From assembly GCA_015904045.1 (NCBI GenBank), contig JABMDG010000032.1, forward strand, positions 1-18,410: a stretch of DNA of 18,410 bases. The letters run 5' to 3'. This stretch comes from Nitrospira sp. (GTDB lineage Bacteria; Nitrospirota; Nitrospiria; Nitrospirales; Nitrospiraceae). Position numbers and translations under genes: made by a program. Position 1 is the stretch's first letter, and every line of letters begins with the position of its first letter. The notes under the pieces are model-generated. The model saw nothing but the letters and a program-made list of their open reading frames with translations. It was not told the DNA's origin and searched no databases. Of the stretch, positions 3,897-18,410 are shown piece by piece.

Positions 3897-3904
3897 TGTA
3901 GACA

Positions 3905-3910: not shown

Positions 3911-3925
3911 ACGATTTTGAGGGCT

Positions 3926-4283: not shown

Positions 4284-4327
4284 GTTACTGAATTGTAACG
4301 ATTAGGATCTTGTTGACTGCGTAACAA
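4284..4327. promoter_or_regulatory. Cluster of GTTAC/GTAAC inverted repeats, possible upstream activator site
   Basis: GTTAC (4284-4288) and GTAAC (4295-4299) form an inverted repeat with a six-base centre. A second dyad, TTGTT (4310-4314) and AACAA (4323-4327), contains a further GTAAC (4321-4325), set 26 bases from the previous one. The cluster lies about 240-280 bases upstream of the predicted nxrA transcription start, a usual distance for a sigma-54 activator site. It also lies just upstream of the tRNA-Gly promoter and could serve that instead, or be chance. Confidence 0.3.
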
Positions 4328-4363
4328 CCCAGATAGTGATGACTCGATCAGGACCTAGGTTGC

Positions 4364-4392
4364 TTGACAGGGTATTGCAAGCTCAGTAGAAT
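4364..4392 (+). promoter_or_regulatory. Sigma-70 promoter of tRNA-Gly
   Basis: TTGACA (4364-4369, a perfect -35) is separated by 17 bases from TAGAAT (4387-4392, five of six for -10). Transcription should begin near 4399, 27 bases before the mature tRNA. A GC-rich patch (ccgcg, 4393-4397) follows the -10, as at growth-rate-controlled stable-RNA promoters. Confidence 0.8.
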
Positions 4393-4425
4393 CCGCGTTC
4401 CTTATCTGGCTAGTGACTTCTGAGA

Positions 4426-4500
4426 GCGGGAATAGCTCAGTGGTAGAGCATCGCCTTGCCAAGGCGAGGGTCGAGGGTTCAAATCCCTTTTCCCGCTCCA
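4426..4500 (+). tRNA. tRNA-Gly (anticodon GCC)
   Basis: Full cloverleaf by eye. The acceptor GCGGGAA (4426-4432) pairs with TTCCCGC (4490-4496). The D stem is GCTC/GAGC (4435-4438, 4446-4449). The anticodon stem TCGCC/GGCGA (4451-4455, 4463-4467) closes the loop TTGCCAA with anticodon GCC at 4458-4460. The T arm is GAGGG/CCCTT (4473-4477, 4485-4489) around TTCAAAT. The discriminator is T4497 and the CCA end is encoded (4498-4500). It decodes GGC and GGU glycine codons. No clear T-tracted terminator hairpin was found after it. Confidence 0.97.
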
Positions 4501-4748
4501 TAATTCTCTCTGTCTCCGGTTGTATCCAAACGCATGGGTAGTATTCTGCCTGCATTCTACAGATGGCGTCCTGAATAGTCTCCGGGGAGTAGTCGGTCAG
4601 GCCTGCGCCCTATCGTCTGAACCTATGCCCTATGATTACATTCCTGGGCTTTTGCGCTATTGTGATTGCGATAGTGACGAATTCCATTTCACGTAAGCAT
4701 TCATTCTCTGACTGCGTGGAGTCACGGCCCGTTTGAGGATGTCCGTCC

Positions 4749-5363
4749 ATGTCACAACAACCCTCCTCTAAAGGTTCCGCTCTCACGCTCACAATCGGTC
4801 TTGGCCTCGTCATCGTGATCATTGGACTCGGCTATCTATTTCTCTTCAAACCTCAAGGCTTATCGACAGAGAGCTTTTCATTTTCATCTTCGACAGCCCA
4901 GCCCAGCCCCTCATCACCGAATCCCTCGCCCAAACCTTTCGAGCCCGAGCCACCTTTGACGCGAGCCTCAATCGATCTGCTACTGAACAACCTTGAGCAA
5001 GCCACCAGACAAAAAGACGTGGACAGCGTTCTGCGACACATCGCTCCCGACGTGACGGTCACCATCCATATGAAGCAGGGAACACACCAGCAGTCCGCGA
5101 TGTTGACACGAGAAGAGTACCGGAAAACGCTCGGCATGGAATTCGCCTTCCCCAGCGCCAATGATTTTACCCGTGTGAATACCACGGTCTCGCTGGCGCC
5201 CGACGAGCGAAGCGCAAAAGTTTCATACAAAACGACGCAGACTTTGCTGCAATCGAATCGGGAATTCAAAATCGAGGGCGAAGAAACTTTCGTTGTACAA
5301 ATGCTGGGCAAGAGGCCCATCATCGTCTCGCTCGAAAAAGTCGTCCCGGGGGAGTCAATGTAG
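4749..5363 (+). CDS. Membrane-anchored protein with NTF2/SnoaL-like domain, function unknown
   Basis: 204 residues. Residues 11-33 are a single strongly hydrophobic helix following a short polar N-terminus with one Lys, so the protein is probably anchored in the inner membrane with its bulk in the periplasm. Residues 40-70 are a Ser/Pro-rich linker. From about residue 73 to the end the helix-then-strands pattern (ASIDLLLNNLEQATRQKDVD, then IAPDVTVTIHM and later strands ending VVQMLGKRPIIVSLEK) resembles the NTF2-like/SnoaL/DUF4440 cone fold. That fold is used both for small-molecule enzymes and for ligand binding; no catalytic residues can be assigned. GAGGA (4735-4739) lies nine bases before the ATG. 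It is followed, 112 bases on, by a two-component system in the same direction, so a periplasmic accessory role for that system is possible but unproven. The 248 bases between the tRNA and this gene hold no other recognisable gene. Confidence 0.75.
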   Translation: MSQQPSSKGSALTLTIGLGLVIVIIGLGYLFLFKPQGLSTESFSFSSSTAQPSPSSPNPSPKPFEPEPPLTRASIDLLLNNLEQATRQKDVDSVLRHIAPDVTVTIHMKQGTHQQSAMLTREEYRKTLGMEFAFPSANDFTRVNTTVSLAPDERSAKVSYKTTQTLLQSNREFKIEGEETFVVQMLGKRPIIVSLEKVVPGESM

Positions 5364-5446
5364 TCGACCGTTAGTCTGTGGCCACCTCCTCCGACCTCTC
5401 AGTCGGCATCTGCTCAAAACTTCTTCCCATGCGTGCCCGCCCGGTT

Positions 5447-5455
5447 TGGTATAAT
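5447..5455 (+). promoter_or_regulatory. Extended -10 promoter of the response regulator gene
   Basis: TGGTATAAT gives a perfect TATAAT (5450-5455) with the TGn extension. No good -35 is visible, which the extended -10 can compensate. Transcription would begin near 5462, about 14 bases before the ATG, leaving room for the weak AGGA ribosome site (5466-5469). The two-component genes can therefore be transcribed separately from the upstream gene. Confidence 0.6.
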
Positions 5456-5475
5456 CACGCCCTACAGGATCGTCC

Positions 5476-6147
5476 ATGCGCGTACTCGTCATCGAAGATG
5501 AAACCAAAGTCGGCTGCTTTATCAAGCGCGCGCTTGAAGAAGAAAGCTACGCCGTCGATCTGTGCGAGGACGGAGTCAAAGGGCTTGAGATGGCCTTGGC
5601 GACCAATTACGATTTGTTGGTGGTTGACCTGATGCTCCCGTCGATGTCCGGCATGGATATTCTCAGAACGATCCGCCGCGAGCGCATTCAAACTCCCGTG
5701 CTCATTCTCACGGCACAGTCCCAGATCGATCAGCGGGTGAAAGGGCTCGATGCCGGCGCCGACGACTACTTGACCAAACCGTTCGCCATCGATGAGTTAC
5801 TGGCCCGCGTCCGCGCCCTTCTCCGCCGAGGCGCAACGGAAAGTTCGGGAATGCTCCAGGTCGATGATTTGGTCCTGAATCCGGCGACGCGCGAAGTGAC
5901 CCGTGGCGGGCAACGCGTCGACCTCACACTCAAGGAATATGCCCTGCTGGAGTACCTCATGCGGCACACCGGCCGCGTCTTGACGCGGCCCATGATTTCC
6001 GAGCACGTGTGGAATCAAGATTTCGATACCTTCACCAACGTCATTGATGTCTATGTGAACTACCTCCGTAACAAGATCGATCGAGGCCGAACCAAAAAGC
6101 TGATCCACACAATCCGGGGCAGCGGGTACATGTTGAAAGCCGACTGA
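5476..6147 (+). CDS. Two-component response regulator, OmpR/PhoB family
   Basis: 223 residues, the usual length. The receiver domain (1-~120) has the acidic pair Glu7/Asp8, the phospho-acceptor Asp51 (LLVVDLMLPSMSG), Thr79 and Lys101 (LTKPF), all intact. The linker is followed by a winged-helix DNA-binding domain (~127-223) with the typical LTLKEYALLEYLMRHTGRV and VIDVYVNYLRNKID segments and the final strand IRGSGYML. It should be phosphorylated by the histidine kinase encoded just downstream and bind promoter DNA as a dimer. The overall look resembles the CusR/IrlR-type regulators that often answer to metals, but the signal and targets here are unknown. The start ATG has AGGA six bases upstream. 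The next kinase ORF is in the same reading frame, separated by this TGA stop and 30 further sense codons. Confidence 0.93.
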   Translation: MRVLVIEDETKVGCFIKRALEEESYAVDLCEDGVKGLEMALATNYDLLVVDLMLPSMSGMDILRTIRRERIQTPVLILTAQSQIDQRVKGLDAGADDYLTKPFAIDELLARVRALLRRGATESSGMLQVDDLVLNPATREVTRGGQRVDLTLKEYALLEYLMRHTGRVLTRPMISEHVWNQDFDTFTNVIDVYVNYLRNKIDRGRTKKLIHTIRGSGYMLKAD

Positions 6148-6148
6148 C

Positions 6149-6238
6149 ATGACCATCCTGCTTATTCTGCCTCCGCTGGTCTACGGATACCGACTCACGG
6201 CGACCCATTCGTTCGGACCCTGCGCTGGAGCTCGCTGA
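6149..6238 (+). CDS. Possible 29-codon linking ORF between response regulator and kinase (uncertain)
   Basis: An ATG lies two bases after the response-regulator stop. It opens a 29-residue frame that begins MTILLILPPLVYGYRL and ends with a TGA whose last base is the first base of the kinase ATG (TGATG). The hydrophobic start and the stop/start overlap suggest that ribosomes could pass from regulator to kinase through this frame by reinitiation. It has no clear ribosome-binding site of its own and no relative that I recognise. It may be chance; a linker role, not a functional peptide, is the more cautious reading. Confidence 0.25.
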   Translation: MTILLILPPLVYGYRLTATHSFGPCAGAR

Positions 6239-7641
6239 TGCCGCTGCGCGTCAGGCTCACCCTCTGGTACGGAAGCGCGCTGGCGCTGGTCTTGATCGTG
6301 TTCTCCGTCGTCCTGTACGTGATCACCGCCCGAAACCTTCGCGACGACGTTGATCAATCGCTCCAAGAAACCGCCGCCACCGCGGTGCGCTCTTTGGAGG
6401 AACGCGGGTTTCTTCCGCTTCTCGACGAAGAAGACCTGCTCTCCCAGTTTCCCGAATTGGCCCGAATCGACAAATTCTTCCAGATCTTCAGCCCCTCCGG
6501 CACCATCACGATCCGCTCACCCAATATCAAACGGCATGAGGTGCCGCTCAGCCGAAAAGCGCTCGAGACGACATTCCGCGGCCAGACGATGTTCGAAACG
6601 ACCAAGTATCCCAACGAGCCCCAGCTGCGGCTCATCTCCGTCCCGATCAATTACAGAGGCCAGCTCCTCTACATCGTGCAGGTCGGCACATCGATGGAGT
6701 CGATCGAGGATACCTTGCGCCGTTTTCTCATCCTGCTGATCGTGGCCGTACCGATTGCGTTGGCCGTCTCGCTTGCGGCGGGGTGGTTTCTCGCCGGCCG
6801 GGCCTTGCGCCCGGTCGATGCAATCACGCTGGCCGCTCAACGCATCGCGGCGGGCGATCTCAGCCAGCGCCTGACCATGCAGACCGCGTCCGACGAAATT
6901 GGCCGGCTGGCCGGAACGTTCAACAACATGATCGGACGGCTCGACACGTCCTTTCGACAGATTCGCCAATTCACCAGCGACGCTTCGCACGAGCTTCGGA
7001 CGCCGTTGACCGTGATGAAAGGGGAAACCGAGCTCGTGCTGCGGCGGCCTCGCCCGCTGGAAGATTATCACTCCGTGCTCGAGAGCAACCTCGAGGAAAT
7101 CGACCGAATGACCCGCATTGTCGATGAACTGCTGTTTCTCTCCCGAGCCGACATGGGCGAGGTCAAGATGGAACTGCTACCGGTCTCCCTGGAAACACTG
7201 GTCGAGGACATCCATCGGCAAGCCACCTTGCTCGGGCAGGACCGCATGATCGAGGTCGTGTTGGGAACTGTCATGCCGGCGCTGGTGCAGGGCGACGAAC
7301 TGCGGCTGCGCGAACTGCTACTCAATTTGGTCGAGAACGCCGTCAAGTATTCAAATCCGAAAGGGAAAGTCACGATCAGTCTGTTGACCGACGGCCAACA
7401 GGCCATTGTATCGGTCACCGACCAGGGCATCGGTATCGCGCCGGACGATCGGCCCAAAATCTTTGACCGCTTTTTCCGCACTGACGAAGCGCGCGCACAC
7501 ACCAAAAAAGGCACCGGTTTGGGTCTCGCCATCTGCTCCTGGATCGCCGAAGTCCACAAAGGCCGGATTAACGTGCAGAGCGCGTTGGGTCGGGGCTCCA
7601 CCTTCACGGTCACGCTCCCGCTCGCACCGCGCCCGGCGTGA
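6238..7641 (+). CDS. Membrane sensor histidine kinase with HAMP domain
   Basis: 467 residues. Layout: transmembrane helix 1 (~10-31), periplasmic sensor region (~32-160), transmembrane helix 2 (~163-184), HAMP domain (~185-238), dimerisation/phosphoacceptor domain with His251 in SHELRTP, and an ATPase domain with the N box (NLVENAVKYS, Asn367), G1 box (Asp395 in DQGIGIAP) and G2 box (GTGLGLAI from Gly425). All catalytic motifs are intact. It should phosphorylate the response regulator encoded 90 bases upstream. The periplasmic region matches no small-molecule sensor I can name; the whole resembles CusS/IrlS-type kinases, so metal or envelope sensing is an inference only. The ATG is preceded by GGAG (6227-6230) at seven bases, which favours this start over the in-frame upstream codons. 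Confidence 0.92.
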   Translation: MPLRVRLTLWYGSALALVLIVFSVVLYVITARNLRDDVDQSLQETAATAVRSLEERGFLPLLDEEDLLSQFPELARIDKFFQIFSPSGTITIRSPNIKRHEVPLSRKALETTFRGQTMFETTKYPNEPQLRLISVPINYRGQLLYIVQVGTSMESIEDTLRRFLILLIVAVPIALAVSLAAGWFLAGRALRPVDAITLAAQRIAAGDLSQRLTMQTASDEIGRLAGTFNNMIGRLDTSFRQIRQFTSDASHELRTPLTVMKGETELVLRRPRPLEDYHSVLESNLEEIDRMTRIVDELLFLSRADMGEVKMELLPVSLETLVEDIHRQATLLGQDRMIEVVLGTVMPALVQGDELRLRELLLNLVENAVKYSNPKGKVTISLLTDGQQAIVSVTDQGIGIAPDDRPKIFDRFFRTDEARAHTKKGTGLGLAICSWIAEVHKGRINVQSALGRGSTFTVTLPLAPRPA

Positions 7642-7703
7642 CTCGTTGTCATTTGCGCCTGCGGCAACCCGACCAAGACAATGACGCGTTGCTCTCGCGG
7701 CTC

Positions 7704-8570
7704 TCAGTCGAACACGACTGTCTTCCGGCCATACACGAGTACGCGATGTTCGATATGCCGCCGCACGGCGCGAGCCAGCACGATTTCCTCCAAATCTCGG
7801 CCTTTGCGGACGAGATCCTCGACGGTGTCCCGGTGACCGATCCGGATCACATCCTGCTCGATGATCGGTCCTTCGTCCAGGTCCTGTGTGGCGTAGTGCG
7901 CGGTCGCCCCGATGATCTTGACCCCGCGGTCATAGGCCTGCCGATAGGGATTCGCACCGATGAAGGCGGGGAGGAACGAATGATGGATATTGATAACCGG
8001 GCAGCCGACTTGGGCCAGAAACTCCGCGCTGAGGATCTGCATGTACCGGGCCATCACGACCAGTTCCACACGGTGTTCCTTCAAGAGGGTGACGACCTGC
8101 CGCTCTTGCTGAGGCTTGGTCTCCTTGCTGACGGGGTACACGGCGAATGGAATCTTGAAGAGATCCGCCCAACTCGCGCAAGTGTCGTGGTTTGAAATGA
8201 TGATGGGAATGTCGATATGGAGTTCGTCTCGACGATGCCGTTGCAACAGATCCGCCAAACAGTGGTCCTGCTTCGAGACCATCATCCCGACACGGGTGCG
8301 CCGGCTGGTGTGATGGACTTCATATCGCATCTCGAACACTTTGGCGATGGGAGCGAAGGCTGCGGGGATCTCATCGGGCGCAATCTGCAATCCCTCCGTC
8401 GCGCACTCCATCCGCATCAGAAAATCGTTCGTCTCTTCGTCCGTGTGGTGATCGGAGTCGAGGATGTTGCCCCCGAAATCGTGAATGAATCCCGAAACCC
8501 GGGCGACGATGCCCTTCCGATCTTTGCAGTGGATCAGCAAAACAATGGAGTCTTTTCTCTGTGCAGTCAT
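7704..8570 (-). CDS. purU: Formyltetrahydrofolate deformylase PurU
   Basis: Hydrolyses 10-formyl-tetrahydrofolate to formate and tetrahydrofolate, balancing the one-carbon pool and supplying formate. 288 residues from ATG 8570, near the usual ~280. An N-terminal ACT domain (about 8-88, IVLLIHCKDRKGIVARVSGF) is followed by a formyltransferase domain. The catalytic residues known for this fold are present: Asn194 and His196 (NIHHSFLPAF) and Asp232 (LDEGPII). The ATG has AGGGAA about eight bases upstream. The TTG at 8603, which would give 11 more residues, has no ribosome site and falls in the predicted -10 box. It ends 62 bases from the convergent kinase gene. The shorter enzyme PurN has no ACT domain, so PurU is the better call. 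In autotrophs this enzyme links folate and formate metabolism; its role here is inferred. Confidence 0.94.
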   Translation of the reverse strand: MTAQRKDSIVLLIHCKDRKGIVARVSGFIHDFGGNILDSDHHTDEETNDFLMRMECATEGLQIAPDEIPAAFAPIAKVFEMRYEVHHTSRRTRVGMMVSKQDHCLADLLQRHRRDELHIDIPIIISNHDTCASWADLFKIPFAVYPVSKETKPQQERQVVTLLKEHRVELVVMARYMQILSAEFLAQVGCPVINIHHSFLPAFIGANPYRQAYDRGVKIIGATAHYATQDLDEGPIIEQDVIRIGHRDTVEDLVRKGRDLEEIVLARAVRRHIEHRVLVYGRKTVVFD

Positions 8571-8602
8571 GTGGTACTTCCCTGTCTGAGATGACTCAAC
8601 CA

Positions 8603-8611
8603 ATTCTAGCA
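8603..8611 (-). promoter_or_regulatory. Extended -10 promoter upstream of purU
   Basis: On the minus strand TGCTAGAAT gives a TGn extension plus TAGAAT (8608-8603). Transcription would begin near 8596, leaving a leader of about 26 bases with the ribosome site. No good -35 was found. It would let purU be expressed apart from rimO, which lies 146 bases upstream. Confidence 0.45.
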
Positions 8612-8716
8612 GAGAGCAGATCCGGCAGAGGGCGGGGGCTTTTCAGGTTCAAAAGGCTCTTGGGGGTCCCGTCGTTCATGAGCATGCGAGGAGATGCGCT
8701 GCACGGGTCGGGAGCG

Positions 8717-10135
8717 CTACGTGACGATGTGGCCGACCAGGTCATAGGTGGCGGCATCCGTGATCTCGACCTTTACGAGATCGCCCGGGTTTGCCGTGCC
8801 GTCGTTGATATAGACAACGCCGTCGATCTCAGGCGCCAGCCCTTCATGGCGGCCTTCCAGCAGCAAGTTCGACTCTTCGGAGGGACCGTCGATCAGCACA
8901 TCGAGCACCGACCCGACCCTCTCTTGCCCCTTCGCTGCCGCAATGGGGTCCTGAACTGCCAACAATTCGTTGCGGCGCTCATCCATCACGTCACGGTCGA
9001 TCTTTTTTTCGAATCCGACTGCGGGCGTGTCTTCTTCGTCCGAATAGAGGAACACGGCTACCCGGTCGAATTCCGCTTGTTCCACATAGTCCCGCAACTC
9101 GGTGAAGGCGGCTTCGGTTTCACCGGGAAATCCGACGATGAATGCCGTTCGGAAAGTCACGCCGGGAATGCGGTGCCTGATACGATCGACTACTCGCTCG
9201 ATGGCCGCCCGGTCGCCCAGTCTGTGCATGGCTTTGAGCATGCGGTCGTTGATGTGCTGCAACGGCATGTCGATATATTTCACGATCTTCTCTTCACCCG
9301 CATACAGATCCAACAGCTCGTCCGTGATTTGCTGCGGGTACAAGTAGAAGGGCCTGATCCACCGCACGTCGTTGACCTTGACCAATTCGCGCAGCAGCGA
9401 GGCGAGACCGTGGCGAAGCCCGAGATCGACCCCGTAGTTGATCGTGTCTTGTGAAATCAGGTTGATTTCTTTGACGCCCTCGGCAGCCAGCTGCCGCGCT
9501 TCGGCGACGATCGATTCCACCGGCCGGCTTCGCTGCTTGCCCCGCATCAGCGGGATCGCGCAGAAGGCGCAGTTGCGGTTGCAGCCTTCGGCGATCTTCA
9601 CGTAGGCGCTGTGCTGCCTGCCGAATCGCAGGCGAGGAGCGTCCGCGTCGTAGAGATAGGGAGGCTCGCTGATCCAGAGCCGTTGGTGCCGTTTCTTGGG
9701 AATCAGGAGATCCCGGCAGATGGTGGCGATCTTCCCGAACTCGCCGGTTCCCACCACGCCGTCCAGCTCCGGCAGTTCTTTCAGGAGATCGCCCTGATAG
9801 CGCTGTGCCAGGCAGCCTACGGCTATAAGCACCCGGCAGGCTCCATTCTTCTTCAGCTTGCCATGTTCCAGGATGGTATCGATCGATTCCTGTTTGGCCT
9901 CTTCGATAAAGCCGCAGGTATTGATGATCACGACCTCGGCTTTTTTCGGATTGTCGGTCAGGTGGAATCCATCCTGGACAAGGGTGCCCAGCATCACTTC
10001 GGAATCAACCTGGTTTTTAGAGCACCCCAGATTGACGAAGCCGATGGTCGTTTTTTTAGCAGCAGCGGTCTTCTTTGCAAGCGCCGTCTTTCTGGTGGTT
10101 TTCTTTCGGTCGAGCTGGATCAACGGCGTAGACAT
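8717..10135 (-). CDS. rimO: Ribosomal protein S12 methylthiotransferase RimO (intact copy)
   Basis: Radical-SAM enzyme that adds a methylthio group to an aspartate of ribosomal protein S12. 472 residues. The N-terminal MTTase domain has the three cluster ligands Cys38, Cys74 and Cys108. The radical SAM domain has Cys185-x3-Cys189-x2-Cys192 (EGCNRNCAFC). The C-terminal ~70 residues form the TRAM domain (ending DLVGHIV). The motif set VNLGCSKN/NTCGFIEEAKQES favours RimO over MiaB. Unusual: a ~30-residue Lys/Thr/Ala-rich tail precedes the conserved start of the family, also present in the second copy. No internal ATG gives a shorter form. No Shine-Dalgarno site precedes the ATG; the -10 box lies six bases away (see promoter). 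Divergent from the gamma-carbonic-anhydrase gene. A diverged truncated copy lies at 11440-12438. Confidence 0.95.
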   Translation of the reverse strand: MSTPLIQLDRKKTTRKTALAKKTAAAKKTTIGFVNLGCSKNQVDSEVMLGTLVQDGFHLTDNPKKAEVVIINTCGFIEEAKQESIDTILEHGKLKKNGACRVLIAVGCLAQRYQGDLLKELPELDGVVGTGEFGKIATICRDLLIPKKRHQRLWISEPPYLYDADAPRLRFGRQHSAYVKIAEGCNRNCAFCAIPLMRGKQRSRPVESIVAEARQLAAEGVKEINLISQDTINYGVDLGLRHGLASLLRELVKVNDVRWIRPFYLYPQQITDELLDLYAGEEKIVKYIDMPLQHINDRMLKAMHRLGDRAAIERVVDRIRHRIPGVTFRTAFIVGFPGETEAAFTELRDYVEQAEFDRVAVFLYSDEEDTPAVGFEKKIDRDVMDERRNELLAVQDPIAAAKGQERVGSVLDVLIDGPSEESNLLLEGRHEGLAPEIDGVVYINDGTANPGDLVKVEITDAATYDLVGHIVT

Positions 10136-10141
10136 TCGAGC

Positions 10142-10171
10142 AGTCTACGGGAGGCTTGAAAAGCCTGTCAA
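10142..10171 (-). promoter_or_regulatory. rimO promoter with dyad between -35 and -10; possible leaderless start
   Basis: On the minus strand TTGACA (10171-10166) is separated by 18 bases from TAGACT (10147-10142), and the ATG begins six bases further on (10135). Transcription should start at or next to the A of ATG, and no ribosome site is present. The spacer region holds a perfect inverted repeat, AGGCTT-ttc-AAGCCT (10166-10152), whose first base is the last base of the -35 box. It is placed where MerR-type regulators and some repressors bind. The arrangement is kept in the second copy. Confidence 0.6.
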
Positions 10172-10192
10172 CGAACGCACAAGAGGGCTGTC

Positions 10193-10222
10193 TTGATATT
10201 CTGGAAGCCGTTCCCCTAGAGT
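10193..10222 (+). promoter_or_regulatory. Gamma-carbonic-anhydrase gene promoter, possible leaderless start
   Basis: TTGATA (10193-10198), 18-base spacer, TAGAGT (10217-10222; four of six), then seven bases to the ATG at 10230. Transcription would begin at the start codon, and no Shine-Dalgarno sequence precedes it. It lies back to back with the rimO promoter, 21 bases between the two -35 boxes. Confidence 0.5.
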
Positions 10223-10229
10223 GCCCTCT

Positions 10230-10766
10230 ATGATTCGCACGTTTCAAGGCATCAAGCCGACTGTTCCCACCTCCTGTTTCATCGAGGACACAGGGGTCGT
10301 CATCGGCGACGTGGTGATGGGCGAGAACTGTAGTGTGTGGTTCCACGCGGTGATCAGAGGGGACGTGAACTATATCCGGATCGGCGATCGGACCAACGTC
10401 CAGGATCTCTGCATGTTGCACGTCACCCACGACACTCATCCTCTCCTGATCGGGAGCGACGTCACAGTCGGGCACAATGTCGTGCTGCACGGATGTACCA
10501 TCAAGGATCGCGTATTGGTGGGGATGGGCGCCATCATCATGGACGGCGTGGTCATTGGAGAAGATTCGGTGGTCGGCGCCGGAGCGCTGGTCGTGGAAGG
10601 CACCGTTGTTCCGCCGAAGAGTCTGATCCTGGGCGCGCCCGCCAGAATTCGACGGGCTGTGACGGACAACGAACTCGCCTGGATCAGGGAATCGGCCGAG
10701 AACTACGTGCGATATGCTCGTACCTACATGGACCCTCCATCAAAGTCCACCGGTTTTGTTCCGTAA
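10230..10766 (+). CDS. Gamma-carbonic-anhydrase-family protein, copy 1 (YrdA/PaaY-like)
   Basis: 178 residues of left-handed beta-helix hexapeptide repeats with a C-terminal helix. The metal-site histidines are present: His64 (CMLHV), His82 and His87 (GHNVVLHG). So are the Arg43-Gly-Asp45 pair and Gln58 typical of the family. The acidic proton-shuttle loop of the archaeal Cam enzyme is absent, as in most bacterial YrdA/PaaY-type members, so carbonic anhydrase activity is possible but not certain. Other members hydrolyse CoA thioesters or have no known activity. I start at ATG 10230, not at the in-frame GTG at 10221, because that GTG overlaps the -10 box and the second copy has no matching upstream frame. 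The last 27 bases overlap the convergent gene at 10740-11492. Divergent from rimO. About 90% identical over the first 163 residues to copy 2. Confidence 0.85.
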   Translation: MIRTFQGIKPTVPTSCFIEDTGVVIGDVVMGENCSVWFHAVIRGDVNYIRIGDRTNVQDLCMLHVTHDTHPLLIGSDVTVGHNVVLHGCTIKDRVLVGMGAIIMDGVVIGEDSVVGAGALVVEGTVVPPKSLILGAPARIRRAVTDNELAWIRESAENYVRYARTYMDPPSKSTGFVP

Positions 10767-11492
10767 CCGTCCGCCTTTCCCCTGACTCCTCCCTTCTGCC
10801 CCTCGACCAACCCGAATAAAACAGATCGGGTCGCCCACCAAGGCGGTTGGATATTGTCTCTGCTCAACGTGATACGGAGTGCCATGCCGATGACACCACT
10901 CCGCGATCCAGACCACTTCCTCCGTTGAGGTCGTGACCCAAGCGGGCAAACTGATCTTGGGCATACAGCGATCGACAATCGACCGGACGATGCGACGCTG
11001 TTGTTCAAACCTTGTGGGGTTGAACGTGACCGGATCGAGGTGTCCATAGGACAGCGGTGAGAGGTCTGGGAATCGCTCCGGGTCGTTGAGGACGCTCACG
11101 ATCCAGAGATGATCGAACGTCCCCTTGGCCTTCTCCGCAGTTGATGCGCGGAACTTCACCGGCGTGCCACGGCAAGCCCGGTTGAGTACGGAGACTTCGG
11201 ACCGGCGGAGGTTATAGGGTTCGACGTGGCGATGAAGCTCGATGGCTTCGGCCAACAGACACGGCAACTCCGCAACACCGGCTCCCACATACAGGCTTCG
11301 CCCGCCACGCGGCAACTTTCTCAGGAGTGCCCGGGACAGGTTGATGCCCAGCCGCTCGCAGGGATTTCTCTTGGCTTTCCAGAACTCATCGCCCCCTTCG
11401 TAGCAATAGACGGGACCGAGCTTCTGGTAATCGAGCTGGTCAAACACGCGGCGGACAGCTTTGAGGGTTTGAGTGTGAAGCCTGTATTTCAT
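10740..11492 (-). CDS. Conserved protein of unknown function with methyltransferase-like motif, copy 1
   Basis: 250 residues; I do not recognise a named family. The segment SLYVGAGVAELP (66-77) resembles the glycine-rich SAM-binding motif I of Rossmann-fold methyltransferases. FDHLWIVSVLNDPE (127-140) lies where a motif IV strand would be, so an SAM-dependent methyltransferase is plausible but unproven. The most conserved part between copies is YCYEGGDEFW...KR.PCERLGINLS (29-53). Compared with copy 2 the C-terminus is about 18 residues longer and very basic/polar, because the frame runs on past where copy 2 stops and overlaps the 3' end of the gamma-carbonic-anhydrase gene by 27 bases. No ribosome site precedes the ATG. 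The truncated rimO copy 2 runs 53 bases into this gene in another frame, so it may now depend on the rimO copy 2 promoter. Confidence 0.7.
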   Translation of the reverse strand: MKYRLHTQTLKAVRRVFDQLDYQKLGPVYCYEGGDEFWKAKRNPCERLGINLSRALLRKLPRGGRSLYVGAGVAELPCLLAEAIELHRHVEPYNLRRSEVSVLNRACRGTPVKFRASTAEKAKGTFDHLWIVSVLNDPERFPDLSPLSYGHLDPVTFNPTRFEQQRRIVRSIVDRCMPKISLPAWVTTSTEEVVWIAEWCHRHGTPYHVEQRQYPTALVGDPICFIRVGRGAEGRSQGKGGRLRNKTGGL

Positions 11493-12438
11493 GGGGGACC
11501 GCAGTGAAGCATCGAATGGGATATCGATGCATGCGTTTCAACATCCGGTCGTTGATGTGTTGGAGCGGCATGTCGATGTACTTGGTAATTTTCTCCTCGC
11601 CGGCATAGAGATCCAGGAGTTTATCCGTGATCTGCTGCGGGTAGAGGTAAAAGGGTCTGATCCAGTGAATGTCCTTCACCTTCACAAGCGCGCTCAGCAG
11701 CGTGGTTAATCCATCTCGAATCCCCAGATCCACGCCGTAGTTGATCGTATCCTGGGAGATGAGGTTGAGTTCTTTCACCCCTTCAGCGGCGAGGCGTTCG
11801 GCTTCAGCCACGATCGATTCCACCGGGCGGCTGCGTTGCTTGCCCCGCATGATGGGAATAGCACAGAAGGCGCAGTTGCGGTTGCAGCCTTCGGCGATTT
11901 TCACATAGGCGCTGTGAGCCTTACCGAGCCGCAGGCGCGGGGCATCCGCGTCGTAGAGATAGGGCGGCTCGCTGATCCAGAGCCGTTGCTGCCGCTTTTG
12001 GGGAGCCAGGAGATCCCGGCAGATGGTGGCGATGTTCCCGAATTCGCCGGTTCCCACCACGCCGTCCAGCTCCGGCAGTTCTTTCAGAAGATCGCCCTGA
12101 TAGCGTTGTGCCAGGCAGCCGGCGGCAATGAGGACGCGGCAGACTCCGTTCTTTTTGAGCTTGCTATGTTCGAGAATCGTGTTGATGGATTCCTGTTTCG
12201 CTTCTTCAATGAAGCCGCAGGTATTGATGATGACGACCTCGGCTTTCTTGGGATTGTCGGTTAAAGTGAAGCCGTCGTGTACGAGTGTACCGAGCATTAG
12301 TTCCGAGTCTACCTGGTTTTTCGAGCACCCCAGGTTGACGAAGCCGATGGTCGTTGTTTTAGCAGCCGCGGTCTTCCTGGCAAGCGCTGCTTTCTTGGTG
12401 GTGTTCTTCCGGCCGAGCTGGATCAAAGGTGTAGACAT
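11440..12438 (-). pseudogene. rimO: Truncated second copy of rimO (RimO' lacking the C-terminal third)
   Basis: The reading frame of 332 codons matches intact RimO for residues 1-305 (about 88% identical by hand count) up to LKRMHR. It then continues for 27 unrelated residues through the gap and into the 5' end of the next gene in another frame. The end of homology is abrupt, near base 11524. All six cluster cysteines (38, 74, 108, 185, 189, 192) remain, but the end of the radical SAM barrel and the whole TRAM domain are missing, so normal activity is very unlikely. The Lys/Ala-rich N-terminal tail and the promoter match copy 1. In the 60 bases I compared in detail (12141-12200), 12 differ from copy 1 and only about three change the residue, so the sequence diverged while under selection. 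It is not annotated as functional. Confidence 0.9.
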
Positions 12439-12444
12439 CCGAAC

Positions 12445-12474
12445 AGTCTACGGGAGGCTTGAAAAGCCTGTCAA
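12445..12474 (-). promoter_or_regulatory. rimO copy 2 promoter with the same dyad
   Basis: TTGACA (12474-12469), 18-base spacer, TAGACT (12450-12445), six bases, ATG (12438), identical in arrangement to copy 1. The dyad AGGCTT-ttc-AAGCCT (12469-12455) is unchanged. Since rimO copy 2 is broken, this promoter now faces unknown-protein copy 1. Confidence 0.55.
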
Positions 12475-12495
12475 CGAATGCTCAAGAGAGCCGTC

Positions 12496-12525
12496 TTGAT
12501 ATTCTGGAAGCCGTTCCCCTAGAGT
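12496..12525 (+). promoter_or_regulatory. Gamma-carbonic-anhydrase copy 2 promoter
   Basis: TTGATA (12496-12501), 18-base spacer, TAGAGT (12520-12525), six bases, ATG (12532). The boxes are identical to copy 1. A one-base shortening between -10 and ATG removes the alternative GTG frame of copy 1. Confidence 0.5.
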
Positions 12526-12531
12526 GCCTCT

Positions 12532-13071
12532 ATGATCCGCATCTTTCAAGGTATCAAGCCGACGATTCCGTCCTCCTGTTTTATCGAGGACACGGGGGTG
12601 GTCATCGGCGACGTGGTCATGGGTGAGGAGTGCAGCGTCTGGTTCCATGCCGTGATCCGTGGGGATGTGAACTATATCCGGATCGGCAATCGGACCAACA
12701 TCCAAGACCTCTGCATGTTACACGTCACTCACGATACCCATCCTCTCCTGATCGGGAACGACGTGACCGTCGGCCACAGTGTGGTTCTCCATGGCTGTAC
12801 GATTCACGATCGCGTGTTAGTCGGGATGGGCGCCATCATCATGGACGGGGCTGTTATTGGAGAGGATTCAGTAGTGGGAGCCGGGGCGCTGGTAGTGGAA
12901 GGTACCGTTGTTCCGCCGAAGAGCCTCATCCTGGGCTCACCCGCACGGGTCCGACGGTCCGTGACCGACGAAGAATTAGCCTGGATCAAGAAATCCGCTG
13001 AGAACTATGTGAAGTACGCCGGGTTGTATCTGGGCGGTTCCGCCAAACCGAAGACCGGCTTTCACCTTTGA
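12532..13071 (+). CDS. Gamma-carbonic-anhydrase-family protein, copy 2
   Basis: 179 residues, full length, hexapeptide-repeat beta-helix. The metal-site histidines (64, 82, 87), Arg43, Asp45 and Gln58 are all kept. It differs from copy 1 at about 17 of the first 163 residues, mostly conservative, and in the last ~15 residues (ends TGFHL). Nothing suggests that it is inactive, so the cell may make two slightly different trimers or a mixed one. It ends 28 bases before the convergent unknown-protein copy 2, without the overlap seen in copy 1. It is the only certainly intact gene in the block that is not on the minus strand. Confidence 0.85.
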   Translation: MIRIFQGIKPTIPSSCFIEDTGVVIGDVVMGEECSVWFHAVIRGDVNYIRIGNRTNIQDLCMLHVTHDTHPLLIGNDVTVGHSVVLHGCTIHDRVLVGMGAIIMDGAVIGEDSVVGAGALVVEGTVVPPKSLILGSPARVRRSVTDEELAWIKKSAENYVKYAGLYLGGSAKPKTGFHL

Positions 13072-13099
13072 CCGATCTCAGAGTTGTATCTCTTACGCC

Positions 13100-13798
13100 T
13101 CACCCCTCACCAACTTTAATAAAACAGATTGGGTCACCGACGAGCGCCGTGGGATATTGTTTCCGCTCCACGCGATAGGGAATCCTGTGTCGGTGGCACC
13201 AGTCGGCGATCCACACGACTTCTTCCGTCGAGGTTGTGACCAGGCCGGGTAGACTGAGCTTGGGCATACACTGATCGACGATCGACTGGACAATCCGACG
13301 CTGCTGTTCAAACCTTCCGGGATTGAAGGTGACCGGGTTCGCATTCCCATAGGACAACGGCGAGAGATCTGGAAATCGCTCAGGGTCGTTCAATACGCTC
13401 ACGATCCAGAGATGGTCAAAGAGGCCTCTTGCCTGTGCCGCTGATCTCGCGCGAAGCTTGACCGGTGTGTCACGGCAGGCGTGATTGAGCACCGTGACTT
13501 CGGATCGGCGGAGGTTATACGGTTCAACCTGGCGCTGGAGCTCGATGGCTTCAGCCAACAGGACCGGCAGCTCTGCGACACCGGCGCCCACGTACAGACT
13601 TCGCCCGCCACGCAGCAACTTTTTCAGCAGTGCCTGGGAGAGGTTGATGCCCAGCCGCTCGCAGGGCTTGCGTTTCGCCCGCCAAAATTCATCGCCGCCT
13701 TCGTAACAGTAGAGGTTGCCCAATGTTTTGTAATCGAGCTGAGCGTATATCTTTGTGATCAGCGCCTTTGTTACCGGACTAATCTGCATCGTCATCAT
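13100..13798 (-). CDS. Conserved protein of unknown function with methyltransferase-like motif, copy 2
   Basis: 232 residues. Same motif core as copy 1: YCYEGGDEFW (29-38 in copy 1 numbering), SLYVGAGVAELP and FDHLWIVSVLNDPERFPDLS. The first ~25 residues differ strongly (MMTMQISPV against MKYRLHTQT), whereas the rest aligns well. The start ATG overlaps the stop of the M28 peptidase gene by four bases (ATGA), a typical translationally coupled operon pair, so it probably acts or is at least expressed with that peptidase. It ends IKVGEG, which is likely the natural C-terminus of the family; copy 1 runs on past it. SAM-dependent methyltransferase is the best guess from the motif, at modest confidence. 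Confidence 0.72.
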   Translation of the reverse strand: MMTMQISPVTKALITKIYAQLDYKTLGNLYCYEGGDEFWRAKRKPCERLGINLSQALLKKLLRGGRSLYVGAGVAELPVLLAEAIELQRQVEPYNLRRSEVTVLNHACRDTPVKLRARSAAQARGLFDHLWIVSVLNDPERFPDLSPLSYGNANPVTFNPGRFEQQRRIVQSIVDQCMPKLSLPGLVTTSTEEVVWIADWCHRHRIPYRVERKQYPTALVGDPICFIKVGEG

Positions 13799-14664
13799 GG
13801 AGTCCCTTGAGTTTCTGAGAGATAGACGATTGCTGCGGTGAGACCATCTGCAACGGCGGACATAAAGTCCAGATTCAGTGTCTCAATCGTATCGGTCGGC
13901 CGATGGTAGTGGGGATTGCGGAAGTTGGCGGTGTCGGTGAGCATCACCGCTGGAAATCCATGCTCCCAGAACGGTGTATGGTCACTGCGTCTTGTATCAG
14001 GCAACAGTTCGCCGTTGCCCGGCACGATTAAGGGCACTATCGGCAGATGAAGCCTCATCGCCTGTTCAACAGCCATGGTCAGGGAACTCGATGACTGATT
14101 GCCGATGACGGCCAGAAAGTTTCCAACCGTCGGGACGGCGATCGGGACTCCTGGGGGAATCTGTTGAGACCCTTCTTCATCACGCGCGTAGCCCACACAT
14201 TCCAGTATGATCGCACCATGCAGGGGCTCGCGTGTCTCCGTGAGGTGGGCAACGTAGGCCTGACTCCCCACGAGTCCCTCCTCCTCAAGACAGAACGCGA
14301 TGAAGTGGACGGGTCGGCGGAGCGAGGTCTGCTTGATTCGTTGCGCCACGTCGAGCAAGACCGCCAATGCGCTGCCATTGTCATCGGCTCCCGGTGAGCC
14401 CAACACGGTGTCATAGTGTGCGGCGACAATTAAAGGAGGCAGAACCGGTTGGTCCAGTTCTGATGGCGGATGGGCGACTCCGATCACGTTTCGATAGCTG
14501 CCGCCCAAGGCCTCGAAGTCGTGCGTCGTGACAGCGAGACCAATGTTGGAAAACTGCTCACCGATATAGTGTGCTGTCTGCTGGAGATGGGCCGGTGAGG
14601 ACCACGGATGACGTTCTCCGATCAAGGCCTGCAGATGAGCCCTCAGTCGGAATTTAACAGCCAT
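13795..14664 (-). CDS. M28-family zinc metallopeptidase, copy A
   Basis: 289 residues. Two-zinc aminopeptidase fold of family M28, judged by its ordered ligand motifs: His83 and Asp85 (AAHYDT), Asp94 (GADDNGSA), the Glu pair near 127-128 (CLEEEG), Glu155 (ILECVGYA) and His254 (HYHRPTDT). Asp228-His229 in RRSDHTPFW is also typical. No signal peptide or membrane helix, so it is probably cytoplasmic. The substrate is unknown; members include aminopeptidases and N-acyl-amino-acid hydrolases, and the place next to argB would allow a role on acylated amino acids, which is speculation. It follows an argB 3' remnant by 26 bases, and its stop overlaps the next gene (ATGA). A close paralogue lies at 14855-15736. 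No good ribosome site precedes the ATG. Confidence 0.85.
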   Translation of the reverse strand: MAVKFRLRAHLQALIGERHPWSSPAHLQQTAHYIGEQFSNIGLAVTTHDFEALGGSYRNVIGVAHPPSELDQPVLPPLIVAAHYDTVLGSPGADDNGSALAVLLDVAQRIKQTSLRRPVHFIAFCLEEEGLVGSQAYVAHLTETREPLHGAIILECVGYARDEEGSQQIPPGVPIAVPTVGNFLAVIGNQSSSSLTMAVEQAMRLHLPIVPLIVPGNGELLPDTRRSDHTPFWEHGFPAVMLTDTANFRNPHYHRPTDTIETLNLDFMSAVADGLTAAIVYLSETQGTP

Positions 14665-14690
14665 TGGGGGTTATGCGCTTCACGGTCTGA

Positions 14691-14757
14691 TTAGGCGACG
14701 ATCTCGGTCCCGATCCCCTTCCGCGTGAAGATCTCGAGAAGAATCGCATCGTTGATC
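14691..14757 (-). pseudogene. argB: Remnant of the 3' end of a second argB
   Basis: Read on the minus strand, the frame ending at TAA 14691 gives ...DAILLEIFTRKGIGTEIVA, against ...HAVLLEIFTRKGIGTEIVV at the end of the intact ArgB. Only about 20 codons remain, and an in-frame TGA closes the frame upstream. Similarity fades beyond about 14750, with possible traces of the preceding IIDG region. Like the intact argB it precedes an M28 gene by about 25 bases, so it marks the right end of the duplicated block. Confidence 0.85.
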
Positions 14758-14854
14758 TCTCATGACCAAGATCAGCGGCTCTAATGGATCATGAACACGA
14801 TGAGGCGTTCGTGATGACATGGGCAGGAATAATAACGAAATTGTCCGGTGGAAT

Positions 14855-15736
14855 CTACGAGCAACGCTGACCGGCCAATTCAATGACCGCTGCTGTCACC
14901 GCATCAGCGACGGCGGCAATGAAGTTCAGGTTCAACGTGTCGATGGTATCGGTGGACCGATGGTAGTGGGGGTTACGGAAGTTGGCCGTGTCGGTGAGCA
15001 TGACGGCGGGGAATCCTTGCTCCCAGAACGACGTGTGGTCGCTGCGCCGGGTGTCGGGCAGGAGCTCGCCGTTGCCAGGGACGATGAGCGGCACGATGGG
15101 CATATGCCGTCTCATGGCTTGGCTCACGGAGTGAGTCAAATCGGCTGAGGCTTGATTCCCGATGACGGCCAAAAAGGTTCCAACCGTGGGAACGTCGATC
15201 GGGACGCCAGGCGGAATCTTTTGCGACCCTTCATCTTCACGCGCGTAGCCGACACATTCCAGTATGATCGCACCCTGCACGGGCTTGCGTGTCTCCGTGA
15301 GATGGGTGACGTAGGCGCGACTGCCCAAGAGATCCTCCTCTTCGAGGCAAAATGCAATGAAGTGGACGGGTCGGCTGAGCGAGGTCTGTGTGATTCGGTG
15401 CGCCACATCGAGCAATACCGCCAATGCGCTGGCATTGTCATCGGCTCCCGGTGAGCCCGGTACGGTGTCATAGTGTGCGGCGACGATCAGGGGCGGCTGA
15501 ACCGGTTGGTCCTGTTCTGACGGCTGATGGGCTGCTCCGATCACGTTGCGATGGATACCGCCCAATGCCTCGAATTCGTGCGTGACGACGGTGAGGCCAA
15601 CCTTGGAGAACTGCTCACCGAGATAGCGTGCTGTCCGATGAAGACGGGCTGGTGAGGACAGGGGATGACGTTCGCCGATCAGGGCACGGAGATGCGCCAG
15701 CAGCCTGGTCTTTGCGGGAGTCGTTGATTGGCTCAC
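14855..15736 (-). CDS. M28-family zinc metallopeptidase, copy B
   Basis: 293 residues from GTG 15736. It has the same metal-site motifs as copy A (AAHYDT, GADDNASA, CLEEED, ILECVGYA, HYHRSTDT), all intact, and no signal peptide. The open frame runs further upstream, but that part overlaps argB in another frame and has no family character; no ATG exists between the argB stop and the conserved start, so GTG is the best choice. No ribosome site precedes it. An eight-codon frame begins at the argB stop (TAATG) and ends on this GTG (GTGA), so translation may be handed over from argB. Followed by ~90 bases of unexplained DNA and the argB remnant. In the inferred original order it would be followed by unknown-protein copy 1. 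Confidence 0.82.
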   Translation of the reverse strand: MSQSTTPAKTRLLAHLRALIGERHPLSSPARLHRTARYLGEQFSKVGLTVVTHEFEALGGIHRNVIGAAHQPSEQDQPVQPPLIVAAHYDTVPGSPGADDNASALAVLLDVAHRITQTSLSRPVHFIAFCLEEEDLLGSRAYVTHLTETRKPVQGAIILECVGYAREDEGSQKIPPGVPIDVPTVGTFLAVIGNQASADLTHSVSQAMRRHMPIVPLIVPGNGELLPDTRRSDHTSFWEQGFPAVMLTDTANFRNPHYHRSTDTIDTLNLNFIAAVADAVTAAVIELAGQRCS

Positions 15737-15758
15737 GAATGACGGTGGACGAGCAACA

Positions 15759-16655
15759 TTACACAACGATTTCCGTGCCGATGCCCTTGCGCGTGAAGAT
15801 CTCGAGCAGGACGGCATGGGGAACCCGCCCGTCGATGATATGAGCTTTCCCGACTCCTCCCGCCAACGCATCGAGGCAGGCATGTACTTTTGGCAGCATG
15901 CCCTCCGTGATCGTCCCTTTCTTCACCATACGTTGGACGTCCTTGCGCGAGACGGTCGAAAGATGGCGCCCCTTGGCGTCGCGGATCCCTTTGATATCCG
16001 TCATCATAACGAGCTTTTCCGCACGCAACGCGCCGGCAATCGCGCCGGCCACCAGATCGGCATTGATGTTGTACGTATTCCCCTCTCGATCCGTGCCGAT
16101 CGGCGCGATGACGGGGATGTAGTGGTCTTCTTGAAGGTTGCGTAACAGGCCCGGGTCAACTTTCTCGATATCGCCCACCAAACCGAAGTCTCCTTCACCG
16201 TCCTCTCCATCCAAGTCGCGCTCCAGGCTTTCCGCCCAGGCCTTAGCCGTGAGCGGCTTGCTGAGAATCAAGCCCCCGTCCTTGCCGCTCAATCCGACCG
16301 CGCTGCCCCCGTGCCGGTTGATAAGGTCGGTGATCTCCATGTTGATTTGCCCGGCCAAGACCATTTCCACGATTTCCATCGTGGCTTCGTCGGTGATCCG
16401 GACGCCGTGCCGGAACTTCGCTTCGATGCCGAGCCGATCCAGCATCTTGTCAATCTGGGGCCCTCCGCCGTGGATGATGACCGGATTGATCCCGACATAT
16501 TTCAACAACACCACATCCTGCGCGAACCGTTCTTTCAAGGAGGCATCCGTCATGGCATGGCCGCCGTACTTCACCACGACGGTCTTTCCGCGGAAGGTCC
16601 GAATGTAGGGCAAGGCCTCGATCAGGACGCTGGCTTTCTTGATAAGTCGATTCAT
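15759..16655 (-). CDS. argB: N-acetylglutamate kinase ArgB
   Basis: Phosphorylates N-acetyl-L-glutamate with ATP, the second step of arginine synthesis. 298 residues, amino-acid kinase fold. Visible motifs: VVVKYGG with Lys29, the glycine-rich HGGG at 62-65, FRHGVRITD (81-89), and the end HIIDGRVPHAVLLEIFTRKGIGTEIV. An N-terminal helix of about 20 residues precedes the first strand (RLIKKASVLIEALPYI), as in the hexameric, arginine-inhibited members, so feedback inhibition by arginine is likely. I start at ATG 16655, with GGGAG seven bases upstream; the frame's longer start (TTG 16676) has no such site. The gene is followed after 22 bases by the M28 peptidase and preceded, after 73 bases with an inverted repeat, by hslU. 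Confidence 0.96.
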   Translation of the reverse strand: MNRLIKKASVLIEALPYIRTFRGKTVVVKYGGHAMTDASLKERFAQDVVLLKYVGINPVIIHGGGPQIDKMLDRLGIEAKFRHGVRITDEATMEIVEMVLAGQINMEITDLINRHGGSAVGLSGKDGGLILSKPLTAKAWAESLERDLDGEDGEGDFGLVGDIEKVDPGLLRNLQEDHYIPVIAPIGTDREGNTYNINADLVAGAIAGALRAEKLVMMTDIKGIRDAKGRHLSTVSRKDVQRMVKKGTITEGMLPKVHACLDALAGGVGKAHIIDGRVPHAVLLEIFTRKGIGTEIVV

Positions 16656-16679
16656 GCGTGCGCTCCCGGCCATCAATCT

Positions 16680-16722
16680 CCAGCCCTCAGCAATCGGCGT
16701 TCAGCATGCAGCTGATGGCTGG
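16680..16722. repeat. Inverted repeat between hslU and argB, REP-like
   Basis: CCAGCCCTCAGC (16680-16691) and GCTGATGGCTGG (16711-16722) are inverted copies with one mismatch and a 19-base spacer. Neither side has the T tract of a strong intrinsic terminator for the minus-strand genes. The wording (TCAGC, CAGCC, TTCAGCATGCAGC) resembles dispersed intergenic palindromes, so it may be one copy of a repeat family, or a weak attenuator or processing site between hslU and argB. Confidence 0.5.
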
Positions 16723-16728
16723 CAGTTT

Positions 16729-18126
16729 CTAGAGTATATACCGGCTCAGATCCTGATCCTTCACCACGTCTTTCAGGCGCTCATGGACATAGTCGGCGGT
16801 AATGTTCACAGTCTTGTCCGGCCACTCGGCTCCTTCAAATGAGATCTGTTCCAGCAGCCGTTCCATGATCGTGAACAGACGGCGTGCTCCAATGTTCTCC
16901 GTCCGCTCATTGACCTGCACGGCAATGTCGGCGATGGCCTCCAATCCGTCCGGGGCAAACTGCACGGTGAGCCCCTCCGTCGCCAACAAGGCCTGATACT
17001 GCCGGACCAGCGCCCCTTTCGGTTCCGTGAGGATACGCACAAAGTCTTCTTTCGACAAGGGGCTGAGTTCCACACGGATCGGAAACCGCCCTTGCAGCTC
17101 CGGAATCAGGTCGGAGGGTTTGGCGACGTGAAACGCTCCCGCCGCGATGAAGAGAATATGGTCCGTCAACACCGCTCCATGTTTCGTGGTGACCGTACAG
17201 CCTTCGACGATGGGGAGCAAGTCTCGCTGCACGCCTTCCCGCGAGACATCTGGCCCCATGGTCCGTTCCCGCCCGGCGATCTTGTCGATCTCGTCGAGGA
17301 ACACGATGCCGGTTTGCTCGACCTTGTTGATGGCTTCACGCACCACCTCATCCATGTCGATGAGCTTCTGTGCCTCTTCCTGCGTCAGGTGCTTGAGCGC
17401 TTCCGGGACTTTCATCAGCCGCTTCTTCTTCTTGCCCTGAAACATTCCACCCAACATGTCGCGGAGGTTTCCTTCCAGCTCATCCATTCCACCCATGTTG
17501 GAGATGACGCCGACCGGCATGCTGCGCTCCTTGACCTCCATTTCAACCGTCCGCTCGTCGAGCTTGCCGTCGCGCAATTGGAGCCGCAGTTTCGACCTGG
17601 TGGCCTCGTAGGAATCGTGGGCCGTCGTAGCGGGAGGCTCGCCCTGCCCCTCCATGAATCCAGGTCTCGGCGGGGGTTGGGGCAGCAGCAGGTCGAGCAG
17701 ACGTTCTTCCCCAAGTTGTGCGGCCTTGTGCTGCACCGCGTCCAGACGATGGGATTTCACCATATTGATGGCCAGTTCGGTCAGGTCCCGGATGATGGAT
17801 TCCACGTCCCGCCCGACGTAGCCGACTTCCGTGAACTTGGAGGCTTCCACCTTAATGAACGGAGCCTGAGCCAGCTTGGCCAGCCGCCTGGCGATCTCCG
17901 TCTTTCCCACCCCGGTCGGTCCGATCATGATGATGTTCTTCGGCATAACCTCGTCCCGCAAGTCCGGTGAGAGCTGCTGCCGGCGCCACCGATTGCGGAG
18001 CGCGATGGCCACCATGCGCTTGGCGTCTTTTTGCCCGATGACGTAGCGGTTCAGCTCCTCCACGATCTGCCGCGGGGTGAGGTTGTTGAGATTCAATGAG
18101 TCGGCGGCACTAGTGTGGTGCGTCAT
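16729..18126 (-). CDS. hslU: ATP-dependent protease ATPase subunit HslU (ClpY)
   Basis: AAA+ unfoldase that feeds proteins to the HslV peptidase. 465 residues. Walker A GPTGVGKT (69-76), pore loop GYVG (102-105), inserted I domain (~110-245), Walker B IVFLDEID (274-281), sensor-2 region ENIGARRL, and the C-terminal tail ending DLSRYIL that docks into HslV. All are intact. I start at ATG 18126: the longer open frame (to 18285) lies inside hslV in another frame and its translation has no HslU character. Shine-Dalgarno-like AAGGAT and AAGGA runs lie between 18127 and 18141. It begins 19 bases after hslV, the usual hslVU operon order. Confidence 0.97.
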
Positions 18127-18145
18127 GTCCTTGCGTATCCTTGGC

Positions 18146-18410
18146 TTACCCGTATAGTTCCTCGACGATGATCTGCTGGTTAGTATAAATGTCGATCGCA
18201 CCGGCGATCTGCATCGCTTCAGTGACAACAGCCACCGCGTCCAATGGGGAATGCCCCAGCAATGCTCTGGCCGCTGCCAAGGCATAGGGACCCCCTGAGC
18301 CTATGGCCAGAATCCCGTCTTCCGGCTCGACGACGTCGCCGGTCCCTGAAATGATGAAGGACTGCTCCCGGCCCGCCACCGCAAGCAACGCTTCCAAGCG
18401 GCGTAGAACA
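18146..18410 (-). CDS. hslV: ATP-dependent protease peptidase subunit HslV (3' part; start outside window)
   Basis: The last 88 codons of the proteasome-like threonine peptidase that pairs with HslU. The segment [18 protein letters not shown] and the end [13 protein letters not shown] are characteristic of HslV. The N-terminal catalytic threonine lies beyond the window. The frame is open to the right edge; the apparent Met near 18397 is internal. hslU follows after 19 bases, so the two are co-transcribed. Confidence 0.96.

Follow-up and report, generated by a model that had tools for sequence, protein, structure and literature searches.

How does a bacterial chromosome come to hold a second, diverged copy of a gene neighbourhood inside that same neighbourhood? 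The question is raised by an 18,410-nucleotide stretch of a Nitrospira sp. genome (GenBank assembly GCA_015904045.1, contig JABMDG010000032.1, positions 1 to 18,410; hereafter the window). Read along the minus strand, its genes run hslU, argB and an M28 peptidase gene (M28-B), then a block made of an argB tail, a second M28 gene (M28-A), a gene without a match in Pfam (unk-2), a gamma-carbonic-anhydrase-like gene on the other strand (gamma-CA-2) and the 5' part of rimO (rimO-2), and finally unk-1, gamma-CA-1, rimO-1 and purU. An earlier note, made from the sequence alone, had described this block as a diverged 3.2-kb copy of the neighbourhood within its own homologous region. Self-comparison bears out the copy and its gene order: positions 9225-11438 recur at 11528-13741 with 80% identity, and 13832-14749 recur at 14889-15817 with 79%. 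The proposed ends of the block, 11,524 and 14,757, were refined to 11,523 and 14,749, a shift of 1 and 8 bp. We think it probable that the block is a real interspecies acquisition, in which 3.2 kb of uninterrupted sequence from a Nitrospira similar to bin.260 were captured in an insertion hotspot between M28 and unk, replacing most of an ORF6N-led cargo.

Origin of the block

Loci of relatives were gathered by scanning a genome collection with the unk gene, and the best 80 of 112 loci were used; the selection follows similarity to unk, and loci on broken contigs escape the gap counts given below. Against L005, the locus of Nitrospira bin.260, the block (11523-14757) gives a single colinear blastn match to 10266-7039 with 95.0% identity over 3,237 bp. 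In the flanks, identity to L001, which belongs to the closest relative, genome G001, is 93.4% across 8.7 kb; L002 gives three long matches (92.6, 89.1 and 91.7%), and identity to L005 is 70-85%, mostly ~80%. To the right of the block, 14868-18410 is 96.6% identical to L081, contig 49 of G001.

Trees were built for rimO, gamma-CA, unk and M28 (58, 79, 82 and 67 rows, the last then 68 with L081; loci with less than 60% coverage of a gene were omitted). In all four, the copy in the block lies nearest L005 and the other copy nearest L001/L002 (L081 for M28), and the paired copies are not each other's closest relatives. In the unk tree, the group holding copy 1 is weakly supported, and the smallest well-supported set containing it comprises 11 rows. 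When the copies were forced to be sisters, the approximately unbiased (AU) test rejected the arrangement for every pair, with p values of 4e-64 (M28), 2e-57 (unk), 6e-8 (gamma-CA) and 2e-4 (rimO). Two adjacent in-place tandem duplications (rimO'-gamma-CA-unk and M28-argB'), diverged by 20%, would be compatible with the gene order alone, but sister copies are rejected in 4/4 trees, and the foreign tract, 95% identical to L005, crosses the border of the supposed units uninterrupted. Duplication in place, whether as a plain tandem copy or in two steps, had already seemed unlikely to the earlier note, and we regard its probability as practically negligible. Single-crossover (Campbell) integration of a circle was also rejected; it is expected to give argB-M28-unk2-gCA2-rimO2' followed by argB'-M28A-unk1, and the observed order differs. 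Together, the single colinear match to L005, the trees and the rejected sisterhood mark the block, on sequence comparison, as one contiguous foreign tract from a related Nitrospira lying between native flanks. This agrees with the single insertion of an allelic segment from a relative that the earlier note had put forward.

Along the block, the synonymous distance to L005 is 0.12-0.19 and the ratio of nonsynonymous to synonymous change (dN/dS) is 0.11-0.21; these values reflect both lineages and give no date for the transfer. A closer donor was sought in G018, G059 and G063, where rimO is 96-99% identical to the junction probe described below over 76-78 bp, but longer stretches of the block reach 70-87%, below L005. 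The suggestion that M28-B was imported with the cargo, first raised by its 82% identity to L002, was dropped: the M28 gene of G001, located on a different contig, shares 93% identity with M28-B. The M28 of L002, not M28-B, is the odd one.

An insertion hotspot between M28 and unk

The series that is left when the block is removed, which the earlier note took to be complete, follows the standard order: argB, M28, unk, gamma-CA (opposite strand) and rimO stand in this order in all 48 of the 80 loci in which the five genes were found, and the other 32 lack at least one of the five, often at a contig end. Three loci (L004, L060, L080) show no M28 between argB and unk at the thresholds used, among the 66 loci with both argB and unk.

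Both M28 and unk are present in 67 loci (the second copy of L018 was excluded). The gap between them has a median of 2 bp and a range of -13 to 6,666 bp. It exceeds 300 bp in 19/67 loci and 2 kb in 12/67. Gaps above 300 bp are found in 1/36 hslU-argB, 0/63 argB-M28, 3/77 unk-gamma-CA, 1/61 gamma-CA-rimO and 0/49 rimO-purU intervals, and the gap contents vary among the 24 regions listed. With its fixed flanking genes, its variable content and more insertions than the neighbouring intervals, the M28-unk interval is an insertion hotspot in Nitrospira. This general hotspot is an addition to the earlier note, and the block is an unusual cargo within a hotspot of an ordinary kind. Pairwise identities of M28 and unk show no consistent split between cargo-bearing and empty loci.

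Besides ORF6N genes, the cargo contains a type III restriction-modification pair, a HerA-like ATPase accompanied by a DruA-like gene, a protein of the AlbA/Schlafen type and a weak AbiEii-like match, and the L001 contig has an rve-type transposase at the site. Ten hand-picked cargo proteins were compared with PADLOC. The models matched are PDC-S05 (ORF6N), MTase_III, REase_III, DruA, HerA/mad8 and pAgo-type models (the AlbA protein of L006); two matches are weak (L045, L046), and 2/10 proteins have no match. An ORF6N gene or fragment is present in 15/19 long gaps, or 16/20 when recounted by raw match ends. The ORF6N gene of L076 matches both Pfam ORF6N and PADLOC PDC-S05, a candidate defence family. 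Across the 80 loci, ORF6N is a frequent and often decayed cargo after M28, with matches in 17 (for example L076:3910-4503).

Further large insertions lie between unk and gamma-CA (L006:8690-14142, 5.4 kb; L007:5668-8078, 2.3 kb) and between gamma-CA and rimO (L007:8608-10613, 2.0 kb), at what appear to be secondary insertion sites. In L008, from genome G047, a 160-bp direct repeat (L008:711-870 and 1702-1861, 96%) includes the end of unk and brackets ~0.8 kb between unk and gamma-CA, an arrangement that a single-crossover insertion would leave.

The two joins

At the left join, the donor rimO ends at 11,523. At the right join, 14,749, the argB tail meets a fragment of an ORF6N gene with a 1-bp overlap: M28-B is followed by 34 bp and then by 24 ORF6N codons, which resemble the L076 protein (Table 1) and are cut by the argB tail. 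Because the ORF6N gene is cut after codon 24, the block has displaced resident cargo. In G001, a different ORF6N fragment (~residues 104-178 of 197) lies directly after M28, and L002 has an ORF6N gene after its M28. This fragment and this gene at the same place suggest that an ORF6N gene probably stood at M28 already in the common ancestor.

For the left join, a 161-bp probe was searched in the 79 genomes of the genus and found matches in 64 of them. The rimO-side matches listed all end at probe position 73-78, and the lone unk-side match among those listed is in G007, from which L006 comes. The spacer of 30 bp that separates unk-1 from the rimO-2 break was considered as the end of a cargo gene common to L006, and this was rejected, as the L006 frame is not clearly coding.

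The unk-1 side also bears on another origin, in which a composite of ORF6N fragment and block was built in a different lineage and received ready-made through homologous recombination within flanking genes. Similarity to L006 (88% over 86 bp) covers roughly the first 68 bp of unk-1 together with the 18 bp upstream, the rest of unk-1 being nearest L001, and database names suggest other Nitrospira with several diverged unk copies and two M28 copies. Recombination at flanking core genes is also a hotspot model set out in PMC5635113. However, M28-B looks native (93% to G001; argB 98%), so an imported tract would have to stop before M28-B, and a comparison of cargo-bearing with empty loci gives no sign of extra recombination in M28. 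We consider the arrival of a finished composite distinctly improbable.

Rarity of second copies

Among 175 genomes of the family searched with unk, 155 have a match at E <= 1e-10, and 153/155 have a single one. The two others, the metagenome-assembled genomes (MAGs) G005 and G006 (LK70 and bin_25), hold two diverged unk-gamma-CA copies (82% and 87%) on separate contigs (L014/L036 and L017/L020), as mixed-strain bins would give. At a looser threshold, G047 has an extra short unk piece on the same contig. M28 is single, at E <= 1e-60, in all 66 of the 79 genus genomes that have a match.

In the database, three diverged unk homologues, P0166, P0174 and P0176 (HP491_02030, HP491_02010 and HP491_02060), fall within about ten locus tags and presumably come from one Nitrospira MAG; HP491_02010 and HP491_02030 are listed with a 92,866-base contig, and the longest contig given for HP491_02060 has 96,935 bases. 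A 96,935-base contig is also listed for two M28 homologues (P0252, P0267) that are 89% alike. As a lead only, the HP491 unk set and the paired M28 copies may be a second case of such a locus. A wider idea would be that foreign copies of its flanking genes are captured again and again at the site between argB-M28 and unk-gamma-CA-rimO. These copies would then act as homology arms and draw in more versions and cargo between species; the window would be a first example and the MAG(s) carrying three unk and two M28 copies another. We rate this generalisation as rather unlikely. A narrow open-access search (titles and abstract starts) of the literature on Nitrospira genomic islands or hotspots and on interspecies merodiploids found no paper on this locus, which does not show its absence from print.

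Real transfer or assembly chimera

For a real acquisition, we propose the following course. The donor fragment would have begun at the end of argB and taken in two thirds of rimO, without cargo between the donor M28 and unk. It may have been taken up by the recipient, as ComEC is found in relatives (5/6 genomes tested), and may have been held in register by homology to the locus. Such guidance is suggested by the landing site, since arrival at the matching locus would be improbable for a random fragment; otherwise, the assembly has mixed two strains. Both ends would then have been joined illegitimately, through end capture or template switching, at a hotspot that was broken or being replicated, and most of the resident cargo would have been lost. 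The genome would be left partially diploid, with three additional genes intact, two more present as fragments and a candidate defence gene disrupted. This state is probably near-neutral and transient.

The earlier note left a choice between real recombination of related genomes and an assembly chimera of co-occurring strains. Real transfer is favoured, though not proven; recombination in the sense of homologous crossover does not hold. When the 100 bp of L005 on each side of the break were compared with the adjoining 100 bp of the window, no shared word longer than 7 bp was found on the left and none longer than 6 bp on the right, with L005 in place of the actual donor and without the recipient sequence lost in the event. 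Judged by these sequences, neither join is a homologous crossover and the joining was illegitimate. In an assembly or library chimera, a piece of a co-occurring bin.260-like strain would have been misplaced in an assembly gap at a variable site. Assemblers normally require a longer overlap than 7 bp, and a contig of L018, discussed below, offers 100 bp where the joins of the window share no word above 7 bp. In addition, there are no N bases at either join, and a chimera requires two wrong joins, of which the right one would fall within a gene that is plausibly resident and in its normal position. The lack of a common word above 7 bp, together with a right join inside an ORF6N cargo gene of the kind usual at this site, is what leads us to favour real transfer and to judge a chimera unlikely.

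Besides the limits of the word comparison, several points weigh against a real acquisition. The source is possibly a metagenome, and the site breaks assemblies: the L001 contig stops 2.3 kb upstream of unk, and the G001 M28 lies on another contig, itself ending in cargo. The paired copies of G005 and G006 on separate contigs count here as well. L018 has a second hslU-argB copy, 88% identical (4170-7126 and 12310-15220), on the same contig, lying behind a 100-bp exact repeat (554-653 and 9747-9846) within a truncated rimO; this contig looks like an assembly chimera and shows what a wrong join may look like at this locus. The left join is spanned in 0/79 genus genomes at the sensitivity used. 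Database entry P0001, the chimeric rimO protein, comprises two member sequences on one contig of 65,283 bases, and is not taken as clear independent support. Landing at its own locus is equally expected from a strain chimera. Ku was not found in G001 and G002 but in 10/79 genomes, including the donor-like G003; Ku-dependent end joining is not supported. Homology-facilitated illegitimate recombination proceeds with one homologous end and one end of short microhomology, and the window departs from this classical pattern in that neither end is homologous.

Features of the window

The coordinates are collected in Table 1. Pfam assigns both RimO frames to radical-SAM/UPF0004, gamma-CA to hexapeptide, the peptidase genes to Peptidase_M28 and argB to AA_kinase, and domains were also assigned to purU. 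In the rimO-2 frame, the radical-SAM domain lacks its end and the TRAM domain is missing. The start of M28-B was placed to give a protein of 293 aa, as in database entry P0266. From reading the translations, and not from a family search, we take two further genes to be hslU and, beyond purU, a nitrite-oxidoreductase-like large subunit gene (nxrA).

Table 1. Coordinates of features in the window, with foreign and native origin as assigned in the text.
Feature	Position	Strand	Basis
Foreign block, 3,227 bp: truncated rimO-2, gamma-CA-2, unk-2, M28-A, argB tail	11523..14749	-	blastn against L005, junction alignments
rimO-2 open frame: 304-305 rimO codons and ~28 aa from the recipient side	11440..12438	-	Pfam; database entry P0001
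gamma-CA copy 2, frame intact	12532..13071	+	95% to L005
unk-2, frame intact	13100..13798	-	L005: 97% protein, 96% nt
M28 peptidase copy A (foreign), frame intact	13795..14664	-	94% nt to L005
Donor argB 3' fragment, ~last 20 codons	14690..14749	-	self-comparison, junction alignment
ORF6N gene, first 24 codons (resident hotspot cargo), cut by the block	14749..14820	-	19/24 residues identical to L076 ORF6N protein, E 6e-9 (search of the 80 loci)
Recipient-side spacer, rimO-2 break to unk-1; 18 bp nearest unk-1 resemble L006	11493..11522	-	
rimO copy 1, native, complete	8717..10135	-	98% to L001
gamma-CA copy 1, native	10221..10766	+	
unk-1, native; ~first 68 bp closer to L006 than to L001	10740..11492	-	
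M28 peptidase copy B, native	14855..15736	-	93% nt to L081 of G001
argB, complete, native	15759..16676	-	98% protein to L002, 98% nt to L081

Comparison with known systems

If the acquisition is real, the window is a snapshot of how uncultured nitrifiers acquire chromosomal DNA from other species (~80% identity) through joins that are not homologous. In that case, a hotspot with candidate defence genes can be overwritten by the core genes of a neighbour. The M28-unk interval is also a defined locus for following Nitrospira gene exchange in metagenomes.

It is established that horizontal gene transfer has hotspots between core genes, with homologous recombination at their flanks (PMC5635113). 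Like the hotspots outlined there, the Nitrospira site has fixed flanking genes, a strong turnover of cargo among relatives and the uptake gene ComEC in the background. Unlike in them, the cargo considered here is not a set of new accessory genes; instead, it consists of foreign versions of the very genes that flank the hotspot, truncated at each end. Illegitimate joining aided by homology is described for natural transformation (PMC6382021). The window resembles that process in that foreign DNA was attached where no extended homology exists, with homology in other parts of the fragment as a plausible guide. It differs from the classical pattern given above in having no homologous end and in placing kilobases of homologous donor DNA beside the native copy. 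In Streptococcus pneumoniae, transformation gives rise to merodiploids in which a region of the recipient's own chromosome, ~100-900 kb long, is tandemly duplicated by unequal crossing-over between repeats (PMC3784515). Both cases link partial diploidy to DNA uptake, whereas the extra copy in Nitrospira is a 3.2-kb segment of the donor and not recipient DNA.

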